DNA of 64,000 bases from Variovorax ginsengisoli. Its GTDB lineage: Bacteria > Pseudomonadota > Gammaproteobacteria > Burkholderiales > Burkholderiaceae_C. The stretch is from positions 1 to 64,000 of the forward strand of contig NZ_JAUJZH010000036.1 in the NCBI RefSeq assembly GCF_030486595.1. Reading direction: 5' to 3'. Below, in pieces: positions 745-16,887 of the stretch (within the stretch, counting starts at the first letter, position 1; each line of letters opens with the position of its first letter). The translations under genes and the position numbers were made by a program. The notes beneath the pieces are model-generated. The model made no database searches. It was not told the origin of the DNA and was given only the letters and a program-made list of their open reading frames with translations.

Positions 745-1040
745 GCCTGGGCGAAAAACGCGCTGGCCAGCTTCAATATCTCGTTGGCCCGGCGCAGCTC
801 CTTGACCTCGCGCTCCAGCTCCTTCATCCGCTGGGCCTCGCTGGTCGTAACGCCTTCGCGCACGCCCGTGTCGACCTCGACGCGCTTGACCCATTCGTGC
901 AGCGTCTGCGGCACGCAGCCAATCTTCGGCGCGATGGACTCGATTGCCGCCCACAGCGACGGGTACTCCCCACGGTGCTCCTGCACCATCCTCATCGCCC
1001 GCTCACGGACCTCGGGTGAGAACTTGTTCGACTTCTTCAT
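717..1040 (-). CDS. IS3-family transposase OrfA (helix-turn-helix)
   Basis: This 107-residue protein has the standard OrfA layout. An N-terminal helix-turn-helix (residues about 8-55, [13 protein letters not shown] to TLHEWVKR) binds the terminal repeats. A leucine-zipper-like helix follows (about 68-95, [19 protein letters not shown]). The ending [10 protein letters not shown] is where IS3 elements normally slip -1 into orfB to make the OrfAB transposase. The start is fixed by the ATG at 1040 just inside the terminal repeat. It is intact, but its partner orfB is broken, so transposition from this copy is unlikely. Confidence 0.85.
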
Positions 1041-1112
1041 GGCTCAGTCCTCTCAGAGTGTTGAGCCTCCTCAAAATCCGGGGCGATTCACATGGGCCAC
1101 TCTCTGGCGTCG

Positions 1113-1529
1113 TCAGACCACGCAGAGCTCCAGTCGCTTGCCCAGCGCGCGGAGCGCCGCGGCCACAGTATCAATCTTGGTCGGATGATGCAGGTCCATC
1201 AGCCGCGTGACCTCTTGAGGGCGAGCGGCCATTCGCCGTGCAAGATCCGCAGGTCGCGTGCCCTGCGCGATCATCTCGTTCAGCAATAGAACCTTCGCCG
1301 AGACGCTGGCGGGAAGGTCAACTGCAACCTGTCCACGCTTCAATGGAGAGGGGTACGGCACAGGCCGCCTATCTTCAAAATAGAAGTCCATCGCGGTAGT
1401 CAATGCATCCGCTGCGAGATCAAGGGCTTTCGACCGGCTCTTCGCACCCGTCAAAGCCTCCGGGATGTCCGGAAAGGACACCACGTATCCGTCACCGTCC
1501 CGCGCAATTTTTGCGGGATAACTAAACAT
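1113..1529 (-). CDS. hicB: HicB-type antitoxin
   Basis: This 138-residue protein has the two-part HicB layout. Residues 1-65 are the partially degraded RNase H-like fold (FSYPAKIARDGDGYVVSFPD, with SFPDIPEALT and the DALTTAMDFYF helix). Residues about 85-138 are a helix-turn-helix (LLNEMIAQGTRPADLARRM and DLHHPTKIDTVAAAL) for operator binding. It directly follows hicA: the hicA TGA and the hicB ATG touch with no gap, so translation is coupled. It neutralises HicA and represses the pair. The stop is 22 bases from the IS3 element end, so insertion did not disturb the coding sequence. Confidence 0.9.
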   Translation of the reverse strand: MFSYPAKIARDGDGYVVSFPDIPEALTGAKSRSKALDLAADALTTAMDFYFEDRRPVPYPSPLKRGQVAVDLPASVSAKVLLLNEMIAQGTRPADLARRMAARPQEVTRLMDLHHPTKIDTVAAALRALGKRLELCVV

Positions 1530-1718
1530 TCATTTCCCCTTTTGCTTCACACCTAGCTGGCGGAGGATGAGCATGCGGAGCCCGAGGCCCAACTCTTCCG
1601 TCGCATGTCGTGGGAGCGTAGTTTGTTTGCCGTTCAAGTAGGCCTTTGTGTGCTTCTTGCCTTCAACGAAGGTTGCGCCCAGAGAGGCGAGAAACCGCCT
1701 GAATTCCGATGTCTTCAT
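1530..1718 (-). CDS. hicA: HicA-type mRNA interferase toxin
   Basis: The 62-residue protein matches the E. coli form of HicA (MKxSEFRRxL, TTLPRHATEEL, ILRQLGVK) and has the normal length of a HicA double-stranded-RNA-binding fold. The catalytic His of the family corresponds to H23 in GKKHTKAY. It would cleave mRNA when released from HicB. It is the first gene of the pair, with the toxin upstream of the antitoxin, as is usual for HicAB. Its promoter should lie in 1719-1858, where no other gene is visible. Confidence 0.88.
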   Translation of the reverse strand: MKTSEFRRFLASLGATFVEGKKHTKAYLNGKQTTLPRHATEELGLGLRMLILRQLGVKQKGK

Positions 1719-1858
1719 AGACCTTCCACTTCAAAAGAATTGCTTCAACCATGTACCCACCTCTCATAAAAACAGTGCGAAATTGCACTTGAGTCGCTTC
1801 AACCCTCGAAGCGGAACGTGTCCTGTTGGATGACCAAGCCACACACGTCCGAAACGGA

Positions 1859-3316
1859 TTATAAACAAAAATGGTTACGCGTGTCTTGGGCGGCGTGTTG
1901 CGCGCGCAACACGGAACGACTGGATCGCGTTGGCACGGGGCCGGACAACCGCTTCTCGGCTTGAACAAAGGCCGTCTGCAGCCCTTGGTGCGCGGTTGGC
2001 GCTGCGCCAGTGCGATGGCGCAGGCTCTTCATCTGCACGTCCAGGGCGGCGTGAACCAGGCCGCCGTGGAGCGGGCGCATGACCTCGGACAGTGCCAGCA
2101 CCGCCGCTAGCGCCCCGACGAACGGCGTGGCTACGGCGCGAGAGGCCAGCAGCGTCATCCCGCAGATGTCCTGGCGCTCGTCGGCCAACTTCTTGTAGGT
2201 GTCATTCAACTCAACGGAGGCTTGCGCGGCAGATTCCGCCGTCCAGATTTCCGACGGTCGACGCGGGCCCGGGAACGTGTGCAGCCGGATGCTCCGGAAA
2301 TCGCGATACCCGCTGCCAAGCCCGGTCTCGACGACCAGCGAGAACTCGGCGGTATCGAGGTCGCGGCGCGCGACCACGTTGTCGACGCCGAAGAGGGCCG
2401 TGGTCGGCTCTTCGACCATGACACGATGCCCGAGGCCAAAACGGCGCTCGACCAGCGCGGTGGTGAAGCCCGCGGCCTCGAGCCGGCTCGCCAACGCCCT
2501 GACCTTGGGCTTGAGCAGGTCCGCCGCCCACAGCAGCAAGCAGGTGCTGAGGTTGGACTTGGCGGCCTTGTCAAAATCTTGGAGTACCAGGTGCGGGCGA
2601 CCATTGGCCGGATAGGGCAGCAGTCCCAGCGTCCATGCGTAGGCCTGGCCCAGATGGCCCAGGCCGACGAGCCACAGGGACTTCGGCAAGTAGGCGAGCT
2701 CGGGGCCCTTGTGTGCATCGTTGCGCCAGTCGGCGAGCGCGAGCGGGTTCCAGAGCGACATGCCGACGCTTCGGTGGCCGGCCTCAGCCAGGTCGCCACG
2801 GACGTGCATGAACGCCTCGTTGACCCCCAGCGCCGCGGCGCCGATGCCCGCGAGAGGGTTGTCGTCCACGCATGCCAGTCCACCGCCCGCAACAGCGGGT
2901 GCAATCTCAAAGCGCCAGTGGTCCCAGCTGAGCTGAACACAGAACGCGGGGGGCGTGCCTTCGGGGGCGGCGCCAAGAACGAGGGTCGGCAAGCCCGAGG
3001 CCGCGCTGTTGGAAACTTCTGCGCCAAGCTCTTCAGCGACGACCTGGGCGCTGCGCCCTTGGTACAGCGGGACGTTGAGCTCATAGCTCAGGTCGCCGTA
3101 GACCTCGACGCCGCCCAGGAAGGCGCGTACGGCCGTGTTCAGCACGGTCAAGAAGCACGCCTGGCCGGCGAGCGTGGTGGCCCAGCCTTGACCGAGATGG
3201 ATGCGCAGCCGGTAGCGAGAGAAAAGCGCCACCGCCTCCTCGGGCGAGGTGGCCTCGCCGGAGTCCAGAGCCATCTTGGCCAGGCGGTGCATGGAGTCGG
3301 CGTTGAATTCGGTCAT
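1859..3316 (-). CDS. bilD: BilD, E1-like ubiquitin-activating enzyme
   Basis: This 485-residue ThiF/E1-superfamily protein is the last gene of a Bil operon. It should adenylate the C-terminus of the Ubl (BilA) and pass it through a thioester to BilB. A Rossmann glycine motif (GLGHLGQ, residues 218-224) and the following acidic pair in LQDFD (247-249) form the nucleotide site. A Cys (C385 in DICGMTLLASRAV) is in the position expected for the E1 active-site cysteine. Residues 1-210 are a family-specific N-terminal domain. The ATG at 3316 overlaps the bilC stop by 4 bases (ATGA), which decides the start against a longer upstream frame. Confidence 0.85.
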   Translation of the reverse strand: MTEFNADSMHRLAKMALDSGEATSPEEAVALFSRYRLRIHLGQGWATTLAGQACFLTVLNTAVRAFLGGVEVYGDLSYELNVPLYQGRSAQVVAEELGAEVSNSAASGLPTLVLGAAPEGTPPAFCVQLSWDHWRFEIAPAVAGGGLACVDDNPLAGIGAAALGVNEAFMHVRGDLAEAGHRSVGMSLWNPLALADWRNDAHKGPELAYLPKSLWLVGLGHLGQAYAWTLGLLPYPANGRPHLVLQDFDKAAKSNLSTCLLLWAADLLKPKVRALASRLEAAGFTTALVERRFGLGHRVMVEEPTTALFGVDNVVARRDLDTAEFSLVVETGLGSGYRDFRSIRLHTFPGPRRPSEIWTAESAAQASVELNDTYKKLADERQDICGMTLLASRAVATPFVGALAAVLALSEVMRPLHGGLVHAALDVQMKSLRHRTGAAPTAHQGLQTAFVQAEKRLSGPVPTRSSRSVLRAQHAAQDTRNHFCL

Positions 3317-3804
3317 TGATAAACTCCAGCATTGGTGAGTCGCAGGAGATGGTCGACATCGGAACCCGAGTACGACGCCCACTGGTGGTTGCCTTCGTAG
3401 ACGTACAACCCAAGGTCGCGGGGGCGCGGGTTGCCCTTGGCGAACCGGGGCACGATGAGCGCGATGTGCTCCTTCAAGGCGACCATTGGGTTCGCCCGGT
3501 CCGACCGGCTCTGGCCCGGGCCGAAGGGATGCGTATGCACGTCCGCTACGACGGTCATGCCTTCAGCGCGACAGACCTCCCACAGCTTCGCGAAACTCGC
3601 GGCCTTCAGGGAAACGTAGTCGTTGCGGAGCGCGTCGGGTTGCAGCTGCTCGTACGGCACGAACCGCAGCACCACACGGCCAGCGTCGGTTTTGTGCCCA
3701 AGGAGGAAGGCGCCGCTTTCGCGAACGCCACCGCCTTGCACACGCAGGTGCGCCATCAGCTCCGCCCAGAGCGCGGCAGGCACCTCAAGCAGGGGCGCAG
3801 ACAT
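3313..3804 (-). CDS. bilC: BilC, JAB/JAMM deubiquitinase-like protease
   Basis: This 163-residue protein carries a full JAMM zinc-protease signature: E29 (RESGAFLLG), H90 and H92 (DVHTHPFG), S99 and D102 (QSRSD). In Bil systems this enzyme processes or removes the ubiquitin-like tag. The ATG at 3804 (MSAPLLEVPAALW) overlaps the end of bilB by 20 bases. A further upstream ATG at 3828 would overlap more and is less likely. The stop overlaps bilD by 4 bases. All metal ligands are present, so it should be active. Confidence 0.85.
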   Translation of the reverse strand: MSAPLLEVPAALWAELMAHLRVQGGGVRESGAFLLGHKTDAGRVVLRFVPYEQLQPDALRNDYVSLKAASFAKLWEVCRAEGMTVVADVHTHPFGPGQSRSDRANPMVALKEHIALIVPRFAKGNPRPRDLGLYVYEGNHQWASYSGSDVDHLLRLTNAGVYQ

Positions 3805-4243
3805 AGTCGCGGCTTTGAAGAAGGTCATGGACCACCTCCAGGTAGTGGCTGATGCCCTTGGTGGGCTTCCAGATGAGCTGCGGGTACTGGGCGAACCAGC
3901 ACTCATGGCCGGCGATGCTTTCGCGGTCGCAGGGGATGTAAAGCGCGTCCCCTGCCTTCCAGCCGGGCTTGAAGGCCAGCTGCAGGCGCTCGCCGCCTTG
4001 GGGCCACTTGTCGAACGACAGCTTGCTGTTCGTCGACAGGTCCCAAAACGTGCCCGTGGGGGGGGACATCGGGAAGCCGCTGCAGTCCAGGCGCAGCGTG
4101 TACTCGCGACGATCGCGGGCGATGACGTTGACGTAGAGGTAGGGCCACTCCAGCTTCTTGAACTGCCAGCGGTTGCGGTCCTCGCCCGAGAGAAAGCGCG
4201 CCGACGCGAGGTCGGCACGCAGAGATTGCTCATCCGGTGCCAT
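3785..4243 (-). CDS. bilB: BilB, E2-like conjugating protein
   Basis: This 152-residue protein lies between the Ubl and JAMM genes, where Bil operons place the E2-like conjugating enzyme. Features recalling the E2/UBC fold are the beta-rich centre, the Pro-containing loop FPMSPPTGTFWDL, a Cys in LYIPCDRES (C105, the best candidate for the thioester cysteine) and the C-terminal helix SHYLEVVHDLLQS. C115 (GHECW) is the alternative catalytic residue. The start is 10 bases after the bilA stop. The role is assigned mainly by operon position and weak motif likeness, since these proteins are very divergent from eukaryotic E2s. Confidence 0.75.
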   Translation of the reverse strand: MAPDEQSLRADLASARFLSGEDRNRWQFKKLEWPYLYVNVIARDRREYTLRLDCSGFPMSPPTGTFWDLSTNSKLSFDKWPQGGERLQLAFKPGWKAGDALYIPCDRESIAGHECWFAQYPQLIWKPTKGISHYLEVVHDLLQSRDYVCAPA

Positions 4244-4253
4244 GCCTCGCCCC

Positions 4254-4757
4254 TTAGCCGTTGATGCGGTGCGCGGGCACCAGGTCGAAGGTCACCGAGC
4301 ACTGCGGGCACTTAGTCAGAGTGCCGATGTGGATGTCGACATCGGGCTGCTCGGTGGTGCCGGCGATCTGCAGCACGTGTTCGGCGATGTCGCCTGGCGC
4401 CATGCCGAGCTTCTTCCCGGCCCAGAGGCGCACGCGGCCCACGGTGGTCGCCGGGCGGAACTTGTGGTGCACGACCTCAGCGCCGAAGCGCACCTGCACT
4501 TCCACATGCTTGCAGCGGTGGAGGTGGACGCGCACGCCGTGCTCCTTCTTGAGGTGCTTGACGTGGGTCGCGTGGCCGTCGCCGTGGGCGTCGTCGTCAT
4601 CGTCCTCGACCGAGAGCTTCAGGTCGGACGCATCCGCGCCGGCCTGCAGCAACGCCAGGACGACGCGCTTCAGCTCTTCGACTGTGGCCTCGTCGTCGAC
4701 TTCGACGAACTTGGTGTCAGAGAAGAACTCCGACTGGATGTAGACGCGAGTTGGCAT
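4254..4757 (-). CDS. bilA: BilA, tandem ubiquitin-like (ISG15-like) protein
   Basis: The 167-residue first gene of the operon reads as two beta-grasp ubiquitin-like domains. Residues 1-80 (TRVYIQSEFF, ATVEELKRVVLALL) contain an unusual acidic/His insert at 51-69. Residues 84-162 (VEVQVRFGAEVVHHKF, TTVGRVRLWAGKKLGM, DIHIGTL) form the second, with CPQC at 150-153. The protein ends ...HRING, so its last residue is a single Gly ready for activation without trimming. In known Bil systems BilA is attached to phage structural protein and disrupts virion assembly. It is preceded by the shared promoter motif at 4811-4839. Confidence 0.85.
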   Translation of the reverse strand: MPTRVYIQSEFFSDTKFVEVDDEATVEELKRVVLALLQAGADASDLKLSVEDDDDDAHGDGHATHVKHLKKEHGVRVHLHRCKHVEVQVRFGAEVVHHKFRPATTVGRVRLWAGKKLGMAPGDIAEHVLQIAGTTEQPDVDIHIGTLTKCPQCSVTFDLVPAHRING

Positions 4758-4810
4758 TTCTGCTTTCTTTCAGCTTGGCGAGCCGCACGGGATGCGCTGC
4801 TCATGCTGGG

Positions 4811-4839
4811 TAAGTCGCAGATAGCCCGAGAAATCGGAA
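4811..4839 (-). promoter_or_regulatory. Putative alternative-sigma promoter of the bil operon
   Basis: On the minus strand TTCCGATTTC (4839-4830), 10 bases, then TGCGACTTA (4819-4811). The same two blocks with exactly the same 10-base gap occur at 9639-9611 before the sigma-like gene. If TTCCGA is the -35 and GACTTA the -10, the spacer is 17 bases. The downstream block lies 54 bases before the bilA ATG and 20 bases beyond the helicase stop, in a gap that otherwise has no reason to be conserved. Confidence 0.65.
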
Positions 4840-4858
4840 GTGCGTGCACCAGATCGAT

Positions 4859-7800
4859 CTAGGCTGGGCAATGCAGGAAGTGCCTGCACTTCGGGCACTC
4901 CCAAGGATTGGGCTTGGCCTCAAAGTTGCCGGCCATCAGAGCCTGCGCAATTGGGACGAGGAAGAAGTCGGCCGGCAGTCGGCCGTATGGGAAGACGGGC
5001 TCCTCGGTGCCTGTGCTTAGCACGAAGATGCTGCCCTGGAACGAGAACTTGGGCGAAGACTCGGCCAGGTACTTCAACACCCACCTAAGAGTCTTGTGTT
5101 GACGCGACAGCTTGCCAGATGGCTTGACGCGCACGAATTCAATCTTGATCACAGACCCGGACTTCGTGATGCGGTGGGGCGATACGTGAAGAGGGATGCC
5201 TGCGCATTCGATGTCAAACGGCTTGGCCCTTGCTGCGCGCTGCATGCCAAGCCATGCACGACCGGAAGCTAGGAGCTGGTCTGCGTAGTCCCTGAGATGT
5301 GGCACGGAATCGTTGAAGGCTGGCCCAAGCGAGGCCAGCACCTTTTCGACTTCTGCAGATGGCGGCCCCGGCTCTCCGCCGTAGGGGGCGAAAAGCTCGC
5401 GCATGACGGCCCCTTCAATCAAGGCCGCCGGATGCAGTCCTGCTGCAGGGCTCAGTTCCTTGATACAGTCGTAGAAATAGCGCCGTGGGCACACCCGATA
5501 CGACAAGAAGCCTGCTAGGTCGTATGTCGCAGGCACGGGCGCAGAGCTTCTGCCAGATGGCAGCGCCGGCAATTTGGAAACGGCGGCCTTTCCTTGAACT
5601 CGTTCGAGTAGATGTGCAGCGCCGGTGATAGCCGCAACGCACTCAGCGTTGTACATCGCGTTGGTCTCGTAGAGGACCAAATGTTCTCGTGCTCGGGATA
5701 GTGCCACGTACAGCTTGTTCGACGCTTCGCTCTGCCCCTCGAAGTCTTCGATGGGAGCGATGGACTGCAACAAGGCCTGCGGGACTAGGTCGGAGTCCGT
5801 GCCCATGCGGAAATGCCTGGCGTCGATGTCTACAAGATGGACCGCCTCAAACTCCAGCCCCTTGCTCCCATGAATTGTCATTACGGCTACCGCATCGAGA
5901 CTGTCCGCCTCCGGAGGCGGGATGCGGAGCTCACGGTCATCGCCGACGCGCAGCCGGCGGCGCAAGCGAGTGATGAAGCTGCCGACGGTCTGGTACGCCC
6001 GCCCACCGTCTGGCACCCGTAGGAAGTAAATGAACTGCCAGAGTGCGATGCGGCGGGCGATCTCGAGAATGCTGCTGCCGGCCAGGTGGGTACGAAGAAC
6101 GTCTGTCCGGTCCAGGAGAAGCTGACATGCTACTTCCCACGGGGAGTCTGCTGACTCGAGGCCATCGAAAGTGGCGGCCCAGCGCTGCAGTGCAGCCACG
6201 CCCTTGCTGGATAGACCAGGAGGCGGCGCGACAACCCAGGATAGCGGCATCGGTCGTTTCGCTTTACACCAGGCAAGCAGCTTCTCGACATCCGTGGGCG
6301 GCAACTGGAGGCCTGGGAGTTGTGAGACTCGAAGCATGCCGCTTCCTGACCGGTCGATGAACAGCTGCAGCAATGCCAACAGGTCTTTGACCTCGGGCCG
6401 CTGGAAGATGTCGCCGAGGTGCAGAGCAGGCACCCCTGCCGCGTTCAGTGAATCTGCCGCGGCGCTGCAGGTGTCGTGGGTGCTTGCAAGAATGACCTGG
6501 TCACGGTAAGCCACACCCAGCCCATAGATGCGACGAACATTGGCCGCGAGTTCTCCATGGACCACGTCGTCATTCGCGCACTGAACATGACGAGGCTTGA
6601 TGCCGCTGTGTCCGCGCGCTGACCCCACGTCATCGAGTGGGAGCACCATCTGTAGAGGATTGCCCTCGCGGCCCGTGTGCTCGAAGACGCGAATGACCTC
6701 TTCGAAACTGCGCCGGTTCTCGTTCAGCGGGAACGTCGCGTGGGTTGGAAAGTCGTCGCCGAAGCGGACGATGTTGCGCATGGACGCGCCGCGGAATCGG
6801 TAAATGGCTTGCCGTGCATCTCCCACGACCCAGAGGCTCCTGGCGTGAGCGGCCAATGCCTTCACAAGTTGGGCACTTGCCCGGTTCACATCTTGGTATT
6901 CGTCGACGAGGATGTGCTTGAAGCGGCCGACACTCGCGGCGTACTTGGCGAACTCTTTGGTCAGCGCAAGGGCCGGGAGCATGACGAGGTCGCCCATGTC
7001 GACGAGGCTGCCATTCGCATGCATCTTAGATTCATAGCACCTGTATAGCTTGACGACATCGTGCTGCTTGGCCAGCACCTCAGCGGGGGTGTCCGGTGCC
7101 GATTGCTCAACTGCGTCGGCAAACTCGTTGGCATCGGCGAGTTCGTCCTTTGCTCGCTGGATGGTCGAGACGACGTCCTTCAGCCAATCGAGGGGGTCGC
7201 CAAGCGGATTGAACGCCCTCAGGCCAAGGGCGTAGATGTGGGGCTCGAGAACCGCAATCTGCGCCATCTTGTCGGCGACACCGAAGCGCGGCCGCAGGCC
7301 GAACTGCTCGTGGTTCTTGCGAAGGAACTCCAGGCCGAAGGCGTGAAACGTGCCAACCCAGATGTCATGGGCGTTCGAGACACCAAGTTCTTGCAGCCTG
7401 TCAACCAGCTCTCGCGCTGCCCGATTTGAAAACGTCAGCAGCAGCAAACTCTCGGGCTTGGCCCCCTCGGCGAGTAGATGCTGAACCCTCATGAGGAGCG
7501 TGGCCGTCTTGCCGGTGCCAGGTCCGGCTACCACCAGGGAGGTCTTGGCAGACGACGTGGCTGCCGCCATCTGGTCCTGGGTTGGCGTGATGGGCTGGGG
7601 CGGCTCATCACTGTTCGCTGGCGGCTCGGGAAGAAGCAAACCATCGAGCAACTGTTGCCGAACCAACTCCAGGGGGACGTCTAGGTCTTGCGCGAGTTGT
7701 GTCGCAGTCTTTCCGGCGAGGAAGAGCCCACGGGCCACCGCGCGTGGAAGGAGAAGCTCTCTGGCGAAGATGTTTGCCTGGAGTTCGGATCGCTCGCGAG

Positions 7801-8182
7801 CGCCATAGGCTTCAATTTTCTGGGCGCCGAAAGTGTCACCGTCTTCAGGCTTCAAGGTCGAATCAACGACCTTGTGGCAACCCTCGTGGCCTTCGTGATG
7901 AAGCTTCCAGTGGCCGAACTCGTGTGCGATGAGGAACGCGCGTTCGCCGCTCGGCACGTCGTTGCGTACGACGATTTGTCGGAACTTGCGGAGCAGAACA
8001 GCATCAGCGCTCCCGAGGGCTTCGTCATCAGGTGCCGCGTCAGAGATGTCGAAGTCCTCGGCGTCTTCGGCCGCTACGGCGTCGATAACCTGGTTCGATG
8101 GAACGCCCGATGACGCCCCGTCGCCGAACAGCTGGCGCCTCAACTGCGTCGCAGCCTCCCGGGCTCTGTGAAACGGGGTCAC
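4859..8182 (-). CDS. ImmA/IrrE metalloprotease - UvrD-like helicase - Cys-rich C-terminal fusion
   Basis: One 1107-residue protein carries three parts. Residues 1-150 are an M78 (ImmA/IrrE) zinc peptidase with HEFGH at 87-91 and a probable third ligand in RSELQANIFARELLLP (E133). Residues about 195-870 are an SF1A UvrD/PcrA-type helicase: Walker A GPGTGKT 220-226, LVDEYQDVN near 425, late motifs AVMTIHGSKGLEFEAV and YVALSRAREHLVLYE. The C-terminus (about 890-1107) has SYRVCPRRYFYD and ends CPKCRHFLHCPA, four Cys placed as in Cas4/AddB-type Fe-S nucleases. A clear catalytic D...ExK is not visible, so the nuclease fold may be inactive. GTG start overlaps the upstream stop by 4 bases. Confidence 0.8.
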   Translation of the reverse strand: MTPFHRAREAATQLRRQLFGDGASSGVPSNQVIDAVAAEDAEDFDISDAAPDDEALGSADAVLLRKFRQIVVRNDVPSGERAFLIAHEFGHWKLHHEGHEGCHKVVDSTLKPEDGDTFGAQKIEAYGARERSELQANIFARELLLPRAVARGLFLAGKTATQLAQDLDVPLELVRQQLLDGLLLPEPPANSDEPPQPITPTQDQMAAATSSAKTSLVVAGPGTGKTATLLMRVQHLLAEGAKPESLLLLTFSNRAARELVDRLQELGVSNAHDIWVGTFHAFGLEFLRKNHEQFGLRPRFGVADKMAQIAVLEPHIYALGLRAFNPLGDPLDWLKDVVSTIQRAKDELADANEFADAVEQSAPDTPAEVLAKQHDVVKLYRCYESKMHANGSLVDMGDLVMLPALALTKEFAKYAASVGRFKHILVDEYQDVNRASAQLVKALAAHARSLWVVGDARQAIYRFRGASMRNIVRFGDDFPTHATFPLNENRRSFEEVIRVFEHTGREGNPLQMVLPLDDVGSARGHSGIKPRHVQCANDDVVHGELAANVRRIYGLGVAYRDQVILASTHDTCSAAADSLNAAGVPALHLGDIFQRPEVKDLLALLQLFIDRSGSGMLRVSQLPGLQLPPTDVEKLLAWCKAKRPMPLSWVVAPPPGLSSKGVAALQRWAATFDGLESADSPWEVACQLLLDRTDVLRTHLAGSSILEIARRIALWQFIYFLRVPDGGRAYQTVGSFITRLRRRLRVGDDRELRIPPPEADSLDAVAVMTIHGSKGLEFEAVHLVDIDARHFRMGTDSDLVPQALLQSIAPIEDFEGQSEASNKLYVALSRAREHLVLYETNAMYNAECVAAITGAAHLLERVQGKAAVSKLPALPSGRSSAPVPATYDLAGFLSYRVCPRRYFYDCIKELSPAAGLHPAALIEGAVMRELFAPYGGEPGPPSAEVEKVLASLGPAFNDSVPHLRDYADQLLASGRAWLGMQRAARAKPFDIECAGIPLHVSPHRITKSGSVIKIEFVRVKPSGKLSRQHKTLRWVLKYLAESSPKFSFQGSIFVLSTGTEEPVFPYGRLPADFFLVPIAQALMAGNFEAKPNPWECPKCRHFLHCPA

Positions 8183-8817
8183 GAGTCACCCTCTCTGGTC
8201 TGTAGAGCCAGCAGGCGCTGTTTCTCTTCGTCGCTGACCGACAATGAACGTACTGCAGCTTCCCAAGTTTCCTGAGTAGAGGCGTTTGGGATTCCTTTGG
8301 CTCTAAAGCTCTTGGCACCCGCCAAAGAAGGTCCCAGGCACTGTTGGAGTCCGGCAAGCGCAACATTGAGATGCGCTGCCAAGTCGCTAAGGACCTTGGT
8401 GGGAACGTTGACGACGCTCTTGGTAAGAACCTTCGTCAGAAGCAGTGCTGAAGCACCAAGACCAGCTGCTGCGGCAGCTTGCCTCAGACTTTTCCCTGCA
8501 AGCGATTCGACGGCCTTGCGTGCAGCTTCAACTTTCGAACTGGAGGCAGACCCCTGGTCCAGTTCGTGAAGCCGATTGAGCACGAAGCTCTGCAAGCGCG
8601 ATACGGACTCTTCAGAGACTTCCTGCACGTCGGCAGCTGCGACATCGGGTGAGGCCTCGTATGACGACCAGAGTGCTGCGAACTCGAGGAAGTCCTCGCG
8701 ATATTCCGGGTGGGCTTCACAGGCGCGAAGAACCATAGCGGGTGATGGCTTGTCAGCGGAGAAGAAGAACTCGTCCAGAACTTCTTCGAGTGACAGCTTA
8801 CGAGTGGGCGATGTCAT
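8179..8817 (-). CDS. Unknown 212-residue protein between sigma-like and protease genes
   Basis: I do not recognise a named family. The N-terminus is acidic and helical (LSLEEVLDEFFFS, MVLRACEAHPEYREDFLEF). A middle Ala-rich helix (SLRQAAAAAGLGASALLL, about 110-130) precedes a helical region (LSDLAAHLNVALAGLQQCL) and a charged tail. It overlaps both neighbours by 4 bases (ATGA upstream, GTGA downstream), so stoichiometric co-translation is likely. Its place between a sigma-like protein and an ImmA/IrrE peptidase suggests an anti-sigma or repressor that the peptidase cleaves, by analogy with ImmR/ImmA. That function is inference. The Ala-rich helix is short for a membrane anchor. Confidence 0.75.
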   Translation of the reverse strand: MTSPTRKLSLEEVLDEFFFSADKPSPAMVLRACEAHPEYREDFLEFAALWSSYEASPDVAAADVQEVSEESVSRLQSFVLNRLHELDQGSASSSKVEAARKAVESLAGKSLRQAAAAAGLGASALLLTKVLTKSVVNVPTKVLSDLAAHLNVALAGLQQCLGPSLAGAKSFRAKGIPNASTQETWEAAVRSLSVSDEEKQRLLALQTREGDS

Positions 8818-9545
8818 TGCTTGAACTCCTTCCGCATCTCTTCGACCTTGTCGAGGGCACTGTTCTTGTATGTGTTGACGGTTCGAGGCGTGACTCCGAG
8901 CGCGGTAGCGATGTCCTTGACCAGCATCTCTTCGACGTAGAGCATCGTGTATACAAAGAGTTCTTGCTTGGTCAGGAGGGCCTGCAGGCGGGCCACAACT
9001 TGCGCGTGCTCTTCTTTTGTAGCCAGGGCGTCGGCTGGCGTTGCGGGTTGCCGAAGCGCGGACACCTTGCGAATGGTCTTGTCGGGATCGTCATCCTCGT
9101 CGGAGCGGTCCATGGCATCCAGGCTGTCCTGGAGATTCCGCTTTTTGGCCAGCAAACGCCGCTGGAAGTCGAGTGCGCGACGCTTGAACAACTGCCCAAA
9201 AAGCTTTTCGGCATGAGCTGCGTCACCCGGCCGTGTGACCAGGCACTCCCAGACGTACTGGGACAACTCTTCCGCGGCTTGGTCCAGGTTGCCGATGCTT
9301 CCGGGGTAGATGCCGCTGCGCACTGCGAAGCCCTTAGCGAGGCTGAGTAAGCGCCGTGACAGCACCCTTGAAAGCACTCCTAGCCGGCTTTCGTTTCCAA
9401 CATCGCGGGCACGGCGGAACATGAGAAAGACCTGCTCATCGGGAATGAACCGCGGGTCGTGTTCCCAGTCCGTGCGCGCCAGCCTGGCCAGCAGAGAGCG
9501 ATCATCGAGGGCCTCTACGGCCGAGTCAGGTTCTCGTGTATACAT
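8814..9545 (-). CDS. Sigma-70-family-like regulator, first gene of the protease-helicase operon
   Basis: This 243-residue protein ends in a sigma region-4-type helix-turn-helix (VKDIATALGVTPRTVNTYKNSALDKVEEM, about 210-238), preceded by YTMLYVEEML. The N-terminal half is helical (LGVLSRVLSRRLLSLAK, AAEELSQYVWECLV, LFGQLFKRRALDFQRR) and resembles sigma region 2 in pattern, with an acidic linker (DRSDEDDDPDKT). ATG 9545 is chosen over a longer frame because GGAAAAG precedes it and because a conserved promoter element lies at 9611-9639, inside the longer frame. It may direct transcription of its own operon and of bil. A region-4-only DNA-binding regulator is the alternative. Confidence 0.75.
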   Translation of the reverse strand: MYTREPDSAVEALDDRSLLARLARTDWEHDPRFIPDEQVFLMFRRARDVGNESRLGVLSRVLSRRLLSLAKGFAVRSGIYPGSIGNLDQAAEELSQYVWECLVTRPGDAAHAEKLFGQLFKRRALDFQRRLLAKKRNLQDSLDAMDRSDEDDDPDKTIRKVSALRQPATPADALATKEEHAQVVARLQALLTKQELFVYTMLYVEEMLVKDIATALGVTPRTVNTYKNSALDKVEEMRKEFKQ

Positions 9546-9610
9546 CGTTCTTTTCCATTGGTCATGCGAACACCCCACATTTCTGTTTCGAGGGATGCCC
9601 CCCGCATGAC

Positions 9611-9639
9611 TAAGTCGCAAGAGAAGCCGGAAATCGGAA
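9611..9639 (-). promoter_or_regulatory. Putative promoter of the sigma-like operon, same motif as before bil
   Basis: Minus strand TTCCGATTTC (9639-9630), 10 bases, TGCGACTTA (9619-9611). It matches the element before bilA in both blocks and in spacing. The downstream block is 65 bases before the sigma-like ATG. The inter-block sequences are partly similar (both contain CGG and a CT-rich stretch), so a little common ancestry beyond the two blocks is possible. Confidence 0.65.
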
Positions 9640-9941
9640 ATCGTCTGGCTTCGTGCTGAGGATCTGCTGTTGAAGAGCCCATGACGGCCAGCGCGCTCTT
9701 CCGGTCGCTGCTGTATCGGATCGCCGTCTGTTGCAGGCACACAGGGTGTTGCCTTTCAATTCGCAGGTCCGCTGGAGTGACCACTTCCCCTTTGAATTGG
9801 TCACTTATTGTTGCAATCTGTCCCCCCGAAGGCCGCAGAGAGAGCCGAAAGGCTCATCGACCGTCTGCCCATGACCGACCGGAATAAGTCTGGAACGGTC
9901 GTTCGCCATATCTTGGTAACGCCCATATGAAAATGGATGAA
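9640..9941. other. Intergenic region with no gene seen
   Basis: Between the sigma operon promoter and the end of the subtilase gene both neighbouring operons run on the minus strand. No reading frame here has coding composition. The stretch is relatively poor in G/C in places (ATTGGTCACTTATTGTTGC). An inverted pair GTGACCA (9777-9783) / TGGTCAC (9799-9805) could be an operator or part of a terminator; it has no T-run. Confidence 0.4.
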
Positions 9942-12164
9942 TTACTTGACCCTAATGGGCAGCGAAACTTGCGGCTGGATCGGCACCAACGTCTTGGCAT
10001 AGGCTCGCAGGATGTCGTTGTAGAGATCGGCGTGCTTCGGCGCCTCGACCGAAAGGATCAGCGCGTAGCGGATCTTCTCGGCGCCGGTAGCCCGACCGCC
10101 ACCGTCACGGGCGTTGTAGTGGATGTCGAACACGGGGTTCTTGAGGCTGGAACCACGAAAGCTTTTAGCCCCGTGCAGCACGGTTTCCCACTTGCCCTGA
10201 TCCGAGCGGCGTTCCTGTTCGGTGGCGAATTTCTTCAAGTCAAAAAAGCCCTTGGTGTCCGCGTTGCTCTTGCCGTCCTTGATCTTCTCGTCGTTGGGAC
10301 GGAAGACAACTTCGAGGCCGGCCTTGGTGTAGGCTGCAGCATCCTGCGGATCGGTGGGTGATGCATAGCAGAACGTGGCCTTCAGGCGGACGTTGCCCGT
10401 CAACGCTTCCTTTGGCAGCGGCAGGCTGGCGCGCAGGTATTTGCTGGGTTTGAGCTCCCCTTGGTAGACCACCCGAGCCACGCCATCCGGGCACGTGATG
10501 ATGTCGAGGGTGTCCTCAGGGATCTTGCCCCAGCCCACTTCGATCGGGTCATGCTCGCCAGGATCTGCCGCATGGACCAGCAAGGCCTTGATGGCGAGAG
10601 GCGTTAGGTTGCCGCCCAGGATGGCACGGATGCCGACCGCGCTACGCAGCAGGTACGGCGCCGCGAAACTGGTGCCCAGTTGTGGCGTCAGCACCGGTTT
10701 CGCGTTCGGCGCCAGGACGTGAAAGTATTTGGCCGCCGGGTTACCGCCGAAGGCCATCAGGTCAGGCTTGACGACGCCGGGGCTGCGGCCCGGCCCGATC
10801 GCACTGTAGGGTGCGCGGGCCCAGCCCGCACCGGTATCGTCGGCCGCGCCGACAGAGAGTGCATTCACGCAGTCCGACGGAACTTGCACTCGGCTGTAGC
10901 CGAGTTCGCGGTCGCGTTCCCCGTTGTTGCCCACGGCCACGGTCATCAGCGTGTCGCCATCGCTGAGCAGTTCGTCGATGACGGATGTCCAGGCATGAAC
11001 TTCCTGATCCTCCACTTCAAGGTCCGGCCCCAGGCTCAGGTTGATGAACTCGTAGGAGCGGGACAGCAGAACCTGTTCGATGAGACCGAGCGTGCGATAC
11101 AACTCCAACGGTTCCTCACCGGCCGATTCCTGGTCAAGCACGCGCAAATGGTCCACCGGAGCAAAAGGCCTACCGGCCGTTCCGTTGGGCTGGATCGGGC
11201 CGAACAGCACGGCCGATGTCACGCCCAGACCGTGCTCCGGGCCATGCGGGTCATCCTCAGCATCTTCGTCAAGCTTGCGATACGAGCGCAGCCAGGGACC
11301 GATTGGGTGGTGCTTGGGCAGGCCACCGTCCAGGATGGCGACACGAGGCTCGGACGACAGGGCTTGCTCGGTAGGGAGGCTGCAGCCCACAGAGGGCCCA
11401 CCGCTGCGTTGTAACGGGCGGATGCCGCGCAGCTTGGGCACCGGCCGGATCACCCGGACGAAGGCGAAACTGGCCAGCTTCTCGACTTCGCGCGGCTTGC
11501 CCTCGACCGGCACGAACCACAGGTTGCCTGCGACGAAATCGACTTCACTGTGAACCTTCACGCCCTCTCGCTGGGCGAACTTCACGAAAGCCTTCTGGAT
11601 CAAGCCAGGATCTTCATCCGGCAACAGATGCAGGCCCACCTCGAAGAAGCGATCCTTCGGGCTGCCCAGGCTCACGATGCGGTCGGCCGGCGCGAAGGCA
11701 GCGAACTGTTCAATGTGGGCCAGGTCATCGCCCTCGTCGGATTCCGCATCAATGATTTCCGTCCATTGCGAAAGGCTGCGGAAAGCCTGGCGCTTGCCGG
11801 CTACGAATAACTCGGTCGTCGTGGTCTCCTGCGGCGGCCCTTTGCGAGTCCAGGCCTGCGGCCTGACCTTCACGGTCCGGCTGCCGATGGACTCCAGCCC
11901 CGTGCTGCGCAACAGGCCGGTCGGGAAGTAGGAGCGAGCAATGAAGCTGGGATTCATCATCAACCTGGCCACCGCGAAGTCGCCCGGACAGGCGTCAGTC
12001 GGCAGTTCGTCCAGCGCCTTCGCAGCACTGCGGAATTGGGGAGCCAATCGTTCCTGCGCCTGCGCGAAGGTGTAGACCTCAGCCTTGCCAGGTATGCGCC
12101 TCGGACCCACGATGTCGTGGGTCAGCAACTCGCCGCGACCGATCAGGAAATTGGTTTGGCTCAT
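9942..12164 (-). CDS. Subtilisin-like (S8) serine protease partnered with an AAA+ ATPase
   Basis: This 740-residue protein has an N-terminal extension of about 270 residues and then an S8 protease domain with the full triad: Asp near 279 (RVAILDGGLPKHHP), His near 311 (GPEHGLGVTSAVLFG) and Ser near 498 (LGTSFAAPYLLRS). FINLSLGPDLE and VAVGNNGERDREL are further subtilase hallmarks. There is no signal peptide, so it acts in the cytoplasm. The C-terminal third looks beta-rich. Its ATG overlaps the stop of the AAA gene by 4 bases. AAA/subtilase pairs are predicted conflict or phage-response systems from genome context; the substrate is unknown. Confidence 0.85.
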   Translation of the reverse strand: MSQTNFLIGRGELLTHDIVGPRRIPGKAEVYTFAQAQERLAPQFRSAAKALDELPTDACPGDFAVARLMMNPSFIARSYFPTGLLRSTGLESIGSRTVKVRPQAWTRKGPPQETTTTELFVAGKRQAFRSLSQWTEIIDAESDEGDDLAHIEQFAAFAPADRIVSLGSPKDRFFEVGLHLLPDEDPGLIQKAFVKFAQREGVKVHSEVDFVAGNLWFVPVEGKPREVEKLASFAFVRVIRPVPKLRGIRPLQRSGGPSVGCSLPTEQALSSEPRVAILDGGLPKHHPIGPWLRSYRKLDEDAEDDPHGPEHGLGVTSAVLFGPIQPNGTAGRPFAPVDHLRVLDQESAGEEPLELYRTLGLIEQVLLSRSYEFINLSLGPDLEVEDQEVHAWTSVIDELLSDGDTLMTVAVGNNGERDRELGYSRVQVPSDCVNALSVGAADDTGAGWARAPYSAIGPGRSPGVVKPDLMAFGGNPAAKYFHVLAPNAKPVLTPQLGTSFAAPYLLRSAVGIRAILGGNLTPLAIKALLVHAADPGEHDPIEVGWGKIPEDTLDIITCPDGVARVVYQGELKPSKYLRASLPLPKEALTGNVRLKATFCYASPTDPQDAAAYTKAGLEVVFRPNDEKIKDGKSNADTKGFFDLKKFATEQERRSDQGKWETVLHGAKSFRGSSLKNPVFDIHYNARDGGGRATGAEKIRYALILSVEAPKHADLYNDILRAYAKTLVPIQPQVSLPIRVK

Positions 12165-13369
12165 GCGTCAGCCTTTCTCCGGAGCGCGGTCTTTCGTGCC
12201 GCAGGCGTATCGTTGGTGTACTTGCGAATCGTGTCCCGGCTCACGCCTGTGATGTCGGAGACGGCGTGTTGGGACAGGCGGGTTTGCTTGGCCAGCATCA
12301 CTGCCAGGTCAATGCGGCCTTGCCTGTCGAGCGCCAGAGCGCGTGCCTTCATGAAGTCCTCGACCAGGTCGGCATCGGTGGTCGTGCCCAGGGCCACGGC
12401 GCGCCGGAAGCGCTGCACATCGCGCTCGATGTCGCTGAACGAGTGCCCGGCGAATGCAAACACCAGGATGTCGATCCAACGGGCAAAAAGGGCGTAGTCC
12501 GGCCCCAGGAAGCGCTTGATGGCTTCCTTGACGGCCTGCTCATCGGGCGTCTTGAATTGGACCTCCAAGTCGAAGCGGCGCCAAAGCGCCGGGTCGATCA
12601 GCTCCGGGTGATTGGTGGCCGCAAGCAATACGCTGCTAGTGGGCCATTCGTCGACTTCCTGCAAGATCACGGTGACCAAGCGCTTGAGTTCGCCCACGTC
12701 GCTGTCGTCGCTGCGCCGCTTGGCGATGGCGTCGATTTCGTCCAGCAGCAGCACGCAGGGATCGCGCTTGGCGAAGTCGATGGCCGCCCGTAGGTTGGCG
12801 CCGCTCTTGCCCAGCAGGCTGCTCATCACAGCGGTCAGATCTAGCACGTACAGCGGCACCTTCAATTGCGCGGCGAGCCAGCGGGCCGTGAGTGTCTTGC
12901 CAACCCCCGGCGGCCCCACAAAGATAGCCGAGCGGGTCGGCGTCAGCCCCAGCGCCCGCAGCCGATCACTCTGCCGGCGCTCGGCGATGAGTTGCCCCAA
13001 GACTGCCTCGATATCGCTGGACAGCAGCGGCGCGTCCTTCGTCGGCTCGTCTTTGAACACCTTCAGAAGCGAAAGGCGGGATTCGTCGTCGACCGGCAGG
13101 GCTTGGGTTGGCGACGGCGTAGGCGGCAGCTTGCGCATGGGAGAGACGCTGCGAGCCGGTTTCGACTTCAGGAACAACTCGAGCTGCTCGGCCAGGTCGG
13201 GCGCCTTGCCTCGGTACTTGCGGACCAGCCGCGCCGCGAACAGGCGCACGTCTTCAGTCTGCTCGGCCAGGGCCAAGCGAACCATCTGGGCTAAATCTGA
13301 TTGCTCTTCCTGCATTTCGCCCAACATTCCTGTAAGATATTGATTTGTATATATATTTCCAACAATCAT
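12161..13369 (-). CDS. AAA+ ATPase, first gene of the AAA-subtilase pair
   Basis: The 402-residue protein has a single AAA+ module resembling FtsH/proteasome-type ATPases: Walker A GPPGVGKT (152-159), Walker B VLLLDEIDAI (206-215), and an arginine-finger/sensor segment LLAATNHPELIDPALWRRFD. An N-terminal helical region (about 20-75) and a C-terminal helix-turn-helix-like segment (RLSQHAVSDITGVSRDTIRKY) flank it. The latter hints at DNA binding or autoregulation. The ATG at 13369 has no clear ribosome site. ATG 13327 or 13315 could be the true start. It probably controls the downstream protease by ATP-driven substrate delivery or activation. Confidence 0.82.
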   Translation of the reverse strand: MIVGNIYTNQYLTGMLGEMQEEQSDLAQMVRLALAEQTEDVRLFAARLVRKYRGKAPDLAEQLELFLKSKPARSVSPMRKLPPTPSPTQALPVDDESRLSLLKVFKDEPTKDAPLLSSDIEAVLGQLIAERRQSDRLRALGLTPTRSAIFVGPPGVGKTLTARWLAAQLKVPLYVLDLTAVMSSLLGKSGANLRAAIDFAKRDPCVLLLDEIDAIAKRRSDDSDVGELKRLVTVILQEVDEWPTSSVLLAATNHPELIDPALWRRFDLEVQFKTPDEQAVKEAIKRFLGPDYALFARWIDILVFAFAGHSFSDIERDVQRFRRAVALGTTTDADLVEDFMKARALALDRQGRIDLAVMLAKQTRLSQHAVSDITGVSRDTIRKYTNDTPAARKTALRRKADA

Positions 13370-13808
13370 GTTGGACTAATTGTATTGTCTCACAGTTCAA
13401 CAGGAAGTGGGAGCGCAAGCCGTCGGAGGACAGTCGTGGATTCCTGGGCATCGCCCGCCGAGGCGGGCCGCACTGTCGGGCTTCGCATCAAGCCGCCTAT
13501 GGCGTCTCGCCCATCCCGGCTTCCGGCGTTCCCTCGCTGCGCTCGGCTGACGCCTCCGGACTGGGCTGCGCCCGGTTTGCACGCTGCGCTTGCCGTGAAG
13601 GCAGGTCTGGTGTGGGGCTGACTTGCCGGTTCCCTTCATTCTTGCACTCGGTTCTCGCGGATCAAGGTCGGCACGTGCTACGCACGCTGGCGGCCTTGCG
13701 GTCGTCTTCGAACCCGGGACGGGATTCTGGCCGAATAGCGCACTGCAGCCGGCCAGAGCGCGGGCGGCGTCGCCTTCGGCAATCCGGTAATTACCCCCGC
13801 TGGCAGAT
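13370..13808. other. Non-coding region upstream of the AAA-subtilase operon
   Basis: No convincing gene. The first 60 bases next to the AAA gene are AT-rich for this genome and should hold its promoter (minus strand TTCCTG, 16 bases, TACAAT is possible). A perfect hairpin GCCCGCC-GA-GGCGGGC lies at 13453-13468. A minus-strand frame (13397-13915) is rich in Arg and Pro and looks like chance translation. The segment resembles spacer DNA I associate with integrative elements of this group, but that is from memory only. Confidence 0.4.
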
Positions 13809-14306
13809 ATGCTCGCGGCCATGCACGACTGGATCAGCTCGATAGACCCCAAACAGCTCGATTTCTGGCGAACCGTGGCGACGGTCGTCGCTTCGGCAAT
13901 GGCGGTCGTCGTCACCGGAGTGATTCAGTACCGACAGTGGCGCCTTGGCAAAGATAAGCTCGCTTTCGATCTGTTTGATCGCCGCATGGAAGCTTGGGAG
14001 GCGGTGCGTGCACTCTCCGATGCGGGTGATGAAGCGGATCTCATGATGCGAGGAGCTTGGCTGACCAAGCGGCGGCAAGACCTTCGCAAAGCAGCCGAAG
14101 CGCCCTATCTGTTCGGCAGCCGCATTGCGGGCCCGATCACGGAACTACTGAACGTCAACGAGGCGGCGATCGTATTGGCTCCGACCAACGCAGTCTCAGA
14201 CTATAAGGATTTTCATTCTGCGCTTCGTGACTTGGATGACTGGAGACATCAACACTTCAGGGCCCTAGAGGTCGAGGTGGCCCGGAGTCTCCAGTTGGTG
14301 CGCTAA
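13809..14306 (+). CDS. Small membrane-anchored hypothetical protein
   Basis: The 165-residue protein has one N-terminal membrane segment (FWRTVATVVASAMAVVVTGVI, about 19-39) followed by a basic stretch (QYRQWRLGKDKLAFDLFDRRM) and a helical cytoplasmic domain. This arrangement (short anchor, then KLAFDLFDRRMEAWEAV) is seen in a widespread family of unknown function. The ATG at 13809 or the one at 13821 (MHDWISS) may be used. It stands alone with its own upstream region. The stop overlaps by 4 bases the end of a convergent frame. Confidence 0.65.
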   Translation: MLAAMHDWISSIDPKQLDFWRTVATVVASAMAVVVTGVIQYRQWRLGKDKLAFDLFDRRMEAWEAVRALSDAGDEADLMMRGAWLTKRRQDLRKAAEAPYLFGSRIAGPITELLNVNEAAIVLAPTNAVSDYKDFHSALRDLDDWRHQHFRALEVEVARSLQLVR

Positions 14307-14611
14307 AGGGATATCTGCGCCGTCAGTAAGCGCCAGCCCGCGGGCTTGAGCAGCGCCCCGAAATATTCATCGCCGAGATCGTGCTTTCCTTTGCTGGGGA
14401 GCCGGAGCAACTTGACCAAGCCCAGCACCTCGGCGTTCTCAGCGAGGGTGACTTCGGGCGCCGGCACTTCGTAAAGCTTGCTGGACGAAGCCTGGACGCG
14501 ACGAAGAAGGCGGACGATGTCGACGAGGGGCCATGAGCAGCTTCTTTGAGTTGAGAAGCCTATCGTCTCGGGGCGAACCCGGCGCCGACGCGCGTCGGCC
14601 CAATTTCGCAA
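14303..14611 (-). CDS. Possible small hypothetical protein or gene remnant
   Basis: Residues about 35-102 (VRLLRRVQASSSKLYEVP, EVLGLVKLLRLPSKG, YFGALLKPAGWRLL) look like real protein, while the first 30 residues are Arg-rich and have only a TTG start. It may be a broken gene or begin downstream. It directly follows the 67-residue gene at 14619 and could be co-transcribed with it. No family recognised. Confidence 0.35.
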   Translation of the reverse strand: MRNWADARRRRVRPETIGFSTQRSCSWPLVDIVRLLRRVQASSSKLYEVPAPEVTLAENAEVLGLVKLLRLPSKGKHDLGDEYFGALLKPAGWRLLTAQISL

Positions 14612-14618
14612 ACTGCCA

Positions 14619-14822
14619 TCAGCGAATGGAGATCAGGCCGGTCAACTTCCAAAAGGCATGCACGCGTCTGAGCAGCGCAAACTTGCCTTGGTCCGACCTG
14701 GCCAGGACGACGGCCGCCTCGTCAAGCTGATGGGCCGTCGGCAGCTCGCCGGCCGCGATCCTTCGTTCGAGGTCTTCACACCACTCCCGGTCGTGTTCGA
14801 GCAACTCGTAGTTAGTGGGCAT
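14619..14822 (-). CDS. Small hypothetical protein of 67 residues
   Basis: The ATG at 14822 opens MPTNYELLEHDREWCEDLER, a charged helical protein with coding-like codon use (ARSDQGKFALLRRVHAFWKL). The open frame continues upstream to 15131, but that part overlaps poor sequence and has no good start. No family recognised. The region 14823-15085 upstream holds nothing else I can support. Confidence 0.5.
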   Translation of the reverse strand: MPTNYELLEHDREWCEDLERRIAAGELPTAHQLDEAAVVLARSDQGKFALLRRVHAFWKLTGLISIR

Positions 14823-15085
14823 TGGGGTGATCGCCTCAAAAAACCTAACCCTGACAACGACTTGGCAATCGCGGTTCTGCGCAAGGTTGGCCTTTTCATG
14901 CCGATTTGACGCGCTTTGGCTTTCCAGGGCGATCGGTTGCCAGCCTGGTTCGTGTGAAGCCGGTTTCAAACCTGGCGAGCATCTCGAAACTCTCAGTCGC
15001 AGCAGCGCCGAGGCGTACGCTTCGATTGCAGGGGGACGTTCAGGCCCATGCCCTTCACGAAGGTCCTCGGATGTGTTCTCCCGCG

Positions 15086-15409
15086 TCAGCCGCCGGTGCA
15101 CGCAACCGGCATGGCGCGCCCCACGGCCCACGACGTGCGGCCATGCTCGACGATCAGCGTTTGGCGTCCGTTGGAGAACGTGGTCCCCGACTGTCCGATC
15201 GCCGGAAGATCGACGGCAGCCGACCCGTCAACGGAGACCGAGGCGCTCTCTCCCATCAAGCGCACGGCCAAGCGTGTCCCGTCGCAGAGGTAGCTGCTGA
15301 CTGGATATGGATTGCCGACGCCGATCGAAGGACTTGGCGTCGGATGTTGGCATGCCGCCAGCACCCAGATGACAAACGCGCCGACGATTGAACAAAAAAA
15401 GGTTCGCAT
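15086..15409 (-). CDS. MliC-like lysozyme-inhibitor lipoprotein
   Basis: The 107-residue protein starts with a lipoprotein signal peptide (TFFCSIVGAFVIWVLAAC, lipobox LAAC with Cys near 20). The mature part has the small beta-barrel pattern of MliC/PliC proteins: SSYLCDGTRLAVRL at the start, GQTLIV-like strands (RQTLIVEHG) and a terminal Cys (PVACTGG) to pair with YLCDG. Such proteins block C-type lysozyme in the periplasm. Length and cysteine pattern fit. The short family gives few anchor motifs, so certainty is moderate. It stands alone, downstream of the integrase end. Confidence 0.6.
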   Translation of the reverse strand: MRTFFCSIVGAFVIWVLAACQHPTPSPSIGVGNPYPVSSYLCDGTRLAVRLMGESASVSVDGSAAVDLPAIGQSGTTFSNGRQTLIVEHGRTSWAVGRAMPVACTGG

Positions 15410-15568
15410 TCATCCCCACGAGCTGCTCGCAGGTCCACGAGCTTTTGCGATGTTCATGGTACGGCGTCGAGTAGGGCGTCGTCCAGCGAGCGTGCCCATG
15501 TCGAACTCGTCGAAGCCCGACAGCGACTTCCAATGTGAAAACAGGCAAGCGACAGGCGAACGGCCCCT

Positions 15569-16702: not shown

Positions 16703-16730
16703 GGACGACCTCCAGCAGCATTGGATTCAC

Positions 16731-16763
16731 GGACGAACACGCCGTTAGCGTAAATATTCGTCC
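16731..16763. repeat. Inverted repeat upstream of integrase copy 1
   Basis: GGACGAA (16731-16737) and TTCGTCC (16757-16763) are perfect 7-base arms separated by 19 bases that include CGTTAGCG. It lies 28 bases before the integrase start and could be a recombinase core site or an operator. No copy was found upstream of the second integrase. Confidence 0.35.
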
Positions 16764-16851
16764 CGGCGAGGGCACTTCGCCACCTCTGCTAGCAGTCAGG
16801 AGAGGGGCCGAGGCAGCCTCCCTTGCAGGAAGGAAGGGGGAGGCGTAATAT

Positions 16852-16867
16852 GTCCAATATTTTGGAC
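16852..16867. promoter_or_regulatory. Palindromic operator before the HTH antitoxin gene
   Basis: GTCCAA-TATT-TTGGAC is a perfect 6-base inverted repeat with a 4-base AT spacer, ending 20 bases before the ATG of the Xre-type gene. Its size and position fit autorepression by that dimeric helix-turn-helix protein. Confidence 0.6.
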
Positions 16868-16887
16868 AATCCTTGGTCCGATCTGCC

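Follow-up and report, generated by a model that had tools for sequence, protein, structure and literature searches.

The 64,000-nucleotide window analysed here, positions 1 to 64,000 of contig NZ_JAUJZH010000036.1 of Variovorax ginsengisoli (assembly GCF_030486595.1), carries a bilABCD defence operon next to a three-gene module headed by a gene for an extracytoplasmic function (ECF)-like sigma protein, and the same two-block, promoter-like element lies ahead of both. We consider it very likely that a dedicated, ECF-like sigma factor reads this element as its promoter and that the module, consisting of the sigma gene, orf2 and a gene for an ImmA/IrrE-UvrD fusion, controls bilABCD, with defence induced under positive feedback. 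At the level of sequence, the element is shared by the two operons, restricted to the cluster, conserved, co-varying between its sites and absent from five Bil loci that lack the module.

All seven genes are collinear on the minus strand. The sigma-like gene (8814..9545, 243 amino acids, ATG from 9545) is followed by orf2 (8179..8817), which encodes a 212-amino-acid helical protein, and by the fusion gene (4859..8182), whose 1107-amino-acid product joins, by Pfam, an ImmA/IrrE (Peptidase_M78) domain, a UvrD helicase and a C-terminal cysteine cluster; these three genes overlap by 4 bases at 8814-8817 and 8179-8182. Beyond a gap of about 100 bp come bilA (ubiquitin-like; 4254..4757, ATG from 4757), bilB (E2-like, DUF7665 by Pfam; 3785..4243), bilC (JAB peptidase, Prok-JAB; 3316..3810) and bilD (E1-like; 1859..3319), each matched in that order by its PADLOC model (E 1.4e-54, 3.6e-62, 1.3e-64 and 7.8e-171, respectively), which identifies the cluster as a Bil system.

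Read on the minus strand, the element ahead of bilA (4839 to 4811) is TTCCGATTTC-tcgggctatc-TGCGACTTA and that ahead of the sigma gene (9639 to 9611) is TTCCGATTTC-cggcttctct-TGCGACTTA. Each is 29 bases long, and the geometry of the blocks, with a -35-like TTCCGAT and a -10-like TGCGACTTA, resembles -35/-10 boxes. The element is not a dyad, its self-complementarity being no higher than that of shuffles, and a scan for housekeeping-type promoters ahead of the sigma gene and bilA gave no match. The original prediction, made from the letters of the window, had placed two elements here on the minus strand, with identical blocks 10 bases apart; the coordinates, strand, blocks and spacing are all confirmed at both sites, and the spacer letters differ. 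Its distance to the first codon was right for the sigma gene (65 bases) but one base too long for bilA (53, not 54). Its argument that chance is an unlikely origin also stands: with up to 3 mismatches allowed, the window holds 3 matches, and the expectation from 100 dinucleotide-preserving shuffles is 0.02. At the same threshold the whole genome (7,796,281 bases) holds 3 sites, all of them in the window, and a backwards control pattern has 0.

To follow the element in relatives, GTDB species genomes were scanned with an alignment of the sigma family, giving 18 loci, 12 of them true relatives (47-96% sigma identity); L046-L051 (29-37% sigma identity) were dropped, having none of the other genes. 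The seven-gene order is the same in 11 of the 12 relatives, and the remaining one, L037, is cut off by the end of its contig and has a gap within its ImmA-UvrD gene. The element lies ahead of the sigma gene in all 12 (11 at up to 3 mismatches, L041 at 4) and ahead of bilA in all 11 that extend that far. The check proposed with the original prediction, a motif search of the full genome and of other species, was positive, and the motif was present at the same places in close and moderate relatives carrying the same operons. In 14 genomes, a set without that of L035, all 38 matches at up to 2 mismatches (34 once a duplicate genome is set aside) fell within the cluster and on a single strand per genome; the backwards control pattern gave 3 matches in the same genomes. 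Across seven divergent loci, identity reached 0.90-0.95 in the blocks, against 0.31-0.38 in the upstream flanks and spacers and 0.35-0.58 downstream, and conservation of the bilA element was no weaker than that of the sigma element. The sigma genes of Variovorax RA8 and WDL1 are each preceded by three copies in tandem, all of the same spacing (L005 1279-1429, L044 9785-9935).

The third site in the window, which the original prediction did not include, is a weaker one with 2 mismatches on the minus strand at 3336-3364, over the 3′ end of bilC and before bilD; it is the least certain of the three. A copy at up to 3 mismatches occupies the same position in 9 of the 11 relatives that extend to it. 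The Arg codon at this site is CGA in 9 of 10 cases (the window and nine relatives), and CGA accounts for 11.5% of all Arg codons among the counted genes, an argument that is partly circular because the loci were chosen by motif. Elsewhere the codon is CGG (L042), CGC (L043) or AAG (L059).

Among distant relatives, the letters of the element change yet remain common to both sites of a locus. L042 has TTCGACTTA at both sites, L041 has xACGACTTA at all three, and the alphaproteobacterial loci L069 and L075 have AAACGATTA at both, which in L075 is paired with TTCCGGT; L061 carries a very different pair, GCGCTTCAT ... TTGGGGATT, identical at both places. Permutation of partners among 12 representatives gave p=5e-5, the minimum of the test, for the blocks and p=0.55 for the spacer, and with all 19 loci the values were 5e-5 and 0.17. 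A motif-free search for two-block pairs reached a score of at least 16 in 15 of 18 cognate comparisons versus 7 of 250 non-cognate ones, the latter set excluding comparisons among eight beta-type loci and including near relatives among its seven high scorers. Judged from sequence, such in-step change is what a sigma factor and promoters evolving together would be expected to produce, and not what a neutral repeat would.

We then considered how the module is distributed among Bil loci. A plasmid search returned 37 records with a BilD match, 11 of which were examined, plus two more plasmid records reached through sigma matches. Nine of the 11 examined plasmid Bil loci have an intact gene in the sigma position together with orf2, and eight of these also have ImmA-UvrD; the exceptions are L070, without the fusion, L073, with a shortened sigma gene, and L076, where a helix-turn-helix (HTH) gene and an ImmA/IrrE peptidase stand in place of the sigma module. 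Among 399 evenly drawn genomes of the order, BilD was found beyond the window in G182, which has sigma and orf2 but lacks the fusion, and in G355, which lacks the module; among 398 evenly drawn genomes of the phylum it was found beyond the window in G623, G755 and G770, where no module was found. Many, but not all, Bil operons thus carry the sigma module. L063 (G141) was rejected as Bil, having a weak BilD-like match only. At L073, an insertion sequence of the IS256 type (2007-3579) lies beside the shortened sigma gene (100 amino acids), upstream of the Bil cluster, and Aquincola plasmid L060 (13779-14188) keeps the sigma module and both elements, with its Bil genes reduced to a partial bilA and the end of bilD.

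A generalised form of the element was found ahead of bilA in 0 of 5 Bil loci without the sigma module (L062, L064, L065, L066 and L076; tblastn found no bilA in L066, and its position there was guessed from bilB). The same pattern occurs in 18 of 24 module targets, versus 42 of 9600 shuffled regions and 6 of 744 other windows, counts that are descriptive only because the pattern was generalised after inspection of the data. The central claim of the original prediction, a promoter shared by the two operons and a dedicated sigma regulon for Bil, is supported: in relatives whose sigma identity is as low as 47% the element still precedes both operons, its sites co-vary, and the five module-less Bil loci lack it.

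The sigma-like protein matches Sigma70_r4_2 of Pfam at 26.0 bits against a cut-off of 25.7, which places it among proteins with sigma region 4. Its AlphaFold2 model (predicted local distance difference test score, pLDDT, 78.8) resembles PDB sigma factors over residues 29-243 in Foldseek, with a large root-mean-square deviation, and all listed PDB matches are sigma factors or sigma-like domains. The sigma-like identity first proposed is supported by these two lines. No PADLOC model was matched by the sigma-like protein or orf2, and a scan of viral contigs with the sigma alignment for phage-borne copies found no relative.

The orf2 protein is conserved together with the module genes across loci. 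HTH_31 is weakly matched in 12 of 37 members (best E 7e-4), giving a weak XRE-like HTH signal, and no known anti-sigma domain was matched; it is a candidate anti-sigma factor or protease substrate. Its fold matches, obtained from a poor model, are all to HTH proteins and none is better than E 2, and a fold claim was rejected on both counts. In the fusion, the ImmA/IrrE domain (PF06114, Peptidase_M78) is matched at E 1.2e-12; the protease is not stand-alone but joined to a UvrD-type helicase. HExxH, Walker A, DEYQD and four Cys are retained in 21 of 21 aligned proteins, and among the PADLOC matches listed (25 of 53), all are helicase models.

These features can be assembled into a working model. 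The sigma factor would bring RNA polymerase to the operon that encodes it, to bilA and, perhaps and more weakly, to bilD, and its action on its own operon would give positive feedback on defence. In this model, orf2 may keep the sigma factor inactive; the helicase part of the fusion may sense abnormal DNA, such as phage DNA, ends or single-stranded DNA, upon which the ImmA part could cleave orf2 and free the sigma factor. The last step is proposed by analogy with CapP, which according to one study is activated on binding single-stranded DNA and cleaves the repressor CapH (PMC13373217). This trigger, in which ImmA-UvrD acts on orf2, is an inferred and weaker part of the model, and infection, as the original prediction had it, would be a putative signal.

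The module also extends beyond Bil. A search with an orf2 alignment in evenly drawn samples of 398 genomes of the phylum and 369 of the class revealed five loci besides the window with sigma, orf2 and ImmA-UvrD genes (L086, L087, L088, L089 and L093); orf2 matches in G752 and G881 were dropped for want of ImmA-UvrD. No bil genes were found at these five loci within the stretch examined. Instead, the module is followed by a multiubiquitin gene (Multi_ubiq matched at all 5) and an E1-like ThiF gene, which assigns these operons to the Bub type; ThiF passes the Pfam cut-off in L086 and L087 but falls short of it in L088, L089 and L093. The multiubiquitin targets carry TTCCGG or TACCGG followed by CGAT at similar spacing. 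A seeming promoter pair in L089, with a score of 15, was rejected, as it sits inside the sigma coding sequence. Since the sigma module also stands before Bub-type operons, it is best regarded as a controller for ubiquitin-like immune systems in bacteria.

Several observations weigh against this interpretation. On the protein side, TIGR02937 covers residues 83-236 of the sigma-like protein at 38.4 bits, below its cut-off of 42.9; the best Foldseek match has E 5.5e-3 and none reaches E 0.001; the assignment of sigma region 2 is weak, drawing on the model and a weak profile match; and at distant loci Sigma70_r4_2 is matched at E up to 0.1 in 6 of 11 proteins in the sigma position. The model of orf2 is poor (pLDDT 64.9), and an anti-sigma role for this protein is an unproven candidate. 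L061 and L070 have sigma, orf2 and Bil genes without an adjacent fusion, which speaks against ImmA-UvrD being strictly required; an ImmA domain was sought elsewhere in G182 and on the Cupriavidus plasmid and none was found, in a search without a positive control. On the promoter side, the general pattern is missing in 6 of the 24 module targets, although five of these have a private pair (three scoring at least 16, L072 scoring 15 and L077 scoring 14), the sixth being L073. Because the loci share descent, none of the counts given here represents independent events. Autoregulation, the further claim of the original prediction, fares unevenly: the element precedes the sigma factor's own operon in all 12 relatives, but the pair search recovered a sigma-side partner in 0 of the 5 multiubiquitin loci. 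A sigma-side element is visible by eye in L087, with its -10 part shifted by one base. The absence of a recovered partner suggests that autoregulation may be a feature of the Bil branch.

Other explanations can be set against the same data. The element might be a repressor operator, bound for instance by orf2 and cleared when the ImmA domain cleaves orf2 as CapP cleaves CapH; a housekeeping sigma factor would then transcribe the operons, and the role of the sigma-like protein would be that of an activator or repressor that binds DNA. The weak XRE-like HTH signals in orf2 fit this, as do the known pairing of an ImmA-family protease with an HTH repressor, of which the HTH gene and ImmA/IrrE peptidase of L076 may be a case, and the LuxR-type annotation that plasmid records give to some sigma relatives. 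The element itself, however, is directional and lacks a dyad, has -35/-10 geometry and is not accompanied by a housekeeping-type promoter before the sigma gene or bilA, and the listed PDB matches of the sigma-like protein are all sigma factors or sigma-like domains. We accordingly regard an operator as unlikely.

That bilABCD is transcribed mainly by read-through from the sigma promoter, with the bilA element acting as a boost or persisting as a vestige, is more doubtful still. The seven genes are indeed collinear, with only about 100 bp before bilA, and a terminator scan found terminator-like sites only at shuffle level and none within 4758-4858; yet the bilA element is conserved no less than its sigma counterpart, and the multiubiquitin targets keep the element where the sigma side is mostly without a detectable one. 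Recent duplication or a functionless repeat, suggested by two sites 4.8 kb apart in one island with both blocks identical, is extremely improbable: the spacers differ, both copies stay in place even where the upstream flanks of distant relatives show background identity, and the two sites change in step. A promoter recognised by a dedicated sigma factor remains our preferred explanation.

The 5′ leader of bilA contains a conserved hairpin or DNA dyad (4780..4802, minus strand), aligned over 14 loci (the window, L034-L036, L038-L045, L059 and L060). It has 8 pairs, with 95.8% of cells paired and 3 pairs changed on both sides as compensatory changes, and its covariation score was reached by 0 of 500 shuffles; it could act in RNA or as a DNA dyad operator. 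The 5′ leader of the sigma gene holds an inverted repeat, GTCATGCG...CGCATGAC (about 9561-9610, minus strand), with similar arms in several near relatives. Rfam at gathering thresholds gave zero matches in window positions 1000-17000.

Directly upstream of the sigma operon lies an IetAS-like operon (9942-13369, PADLOC), which is also found upstream of the sigma operon in L034 and L037 and divergently in L059. It was dropped as a regulon member, since the window copy has no element at up to 3 mismatches. The flanks of the island (31-1040, 1113-1718 and 15569-16702) hold IS3-like transposase frames and a HicAB-like pair, both identified by eye, and a phage-type integrase.

Immune operons able to harm the host cell must stay off until needed. 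The controllers described in the available text of PMC13373217 are repressors released by DNA damage, and a private sigma factor follows a different logic. If the proposal is correct, it would describe an insulated, self-amplifying switch with a promoter code perhaps unreadable to other sigma factors, explain how Bil is induced, offer a direct, phage-free means of turning Bil on, and bring two ubiquitin-like defence families under a single control module. Promoter codes that change in this way are, in addition, natural candidates for orthogonal sigma-promoter pairs. A literature search that did not extend to the principal papers on Bil and Bub found neither system under sigma control, and the novelty of such control is therefore provisional.

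Among known systems, CapH and CapP are one of those nearest in layout: there too, a protease of the ImmA family is encoded next to a small HTH-like protein, immediately ahead of an immune operon. Here, in contrast, protease and UvrD-type helicase form one fused protein, and the place of the repressor-operator logic is taken by a sigma factor that has a promoter of its own; the HTH and ImmA/IrrE genes before Bil in L076 are, from their sequences, a candidate CapH/CapP-like pair. CapK and CapS are reported to stand before the cyclic-oligonucleotide-based defence system CBASS, Bub and five Bil operons (PMC13373217), and a count over 544 Bub operons lists 219 with one of two controller kinds and 59 with a third. 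As is proposed for the present module, CapK with CapS and CapW control adjacent immune operons; in the text available they are damage-responsive and repressor-based, and their descriptions there name no sigma factor as controller (PMC13373217). From ECF sigma/anti-sigma pairs such as CnrH-CnrY, the module differs in three ways: no known anti-sigma domain is matched in the partner of the sigma factor, the next gene encodes a cytosolic protease-helicase, and the regulon, as defined by the motif, comprises a single defence system. All four bilABCD genes match PADLOC, whose Bil consists of four genes with no sigma or orf2 model. We think it reasonably probable that these loci represent a sigma-factor class of immune controllers for Bil and Bub, in which lineage-private promoter codes co-evolve with the sigma factor and a protease-helicase DNA sensor serves as the switch, working by activation and positive feedback unlike the repressor-based CapW, CapH-CapP and CapK-CapS systems.

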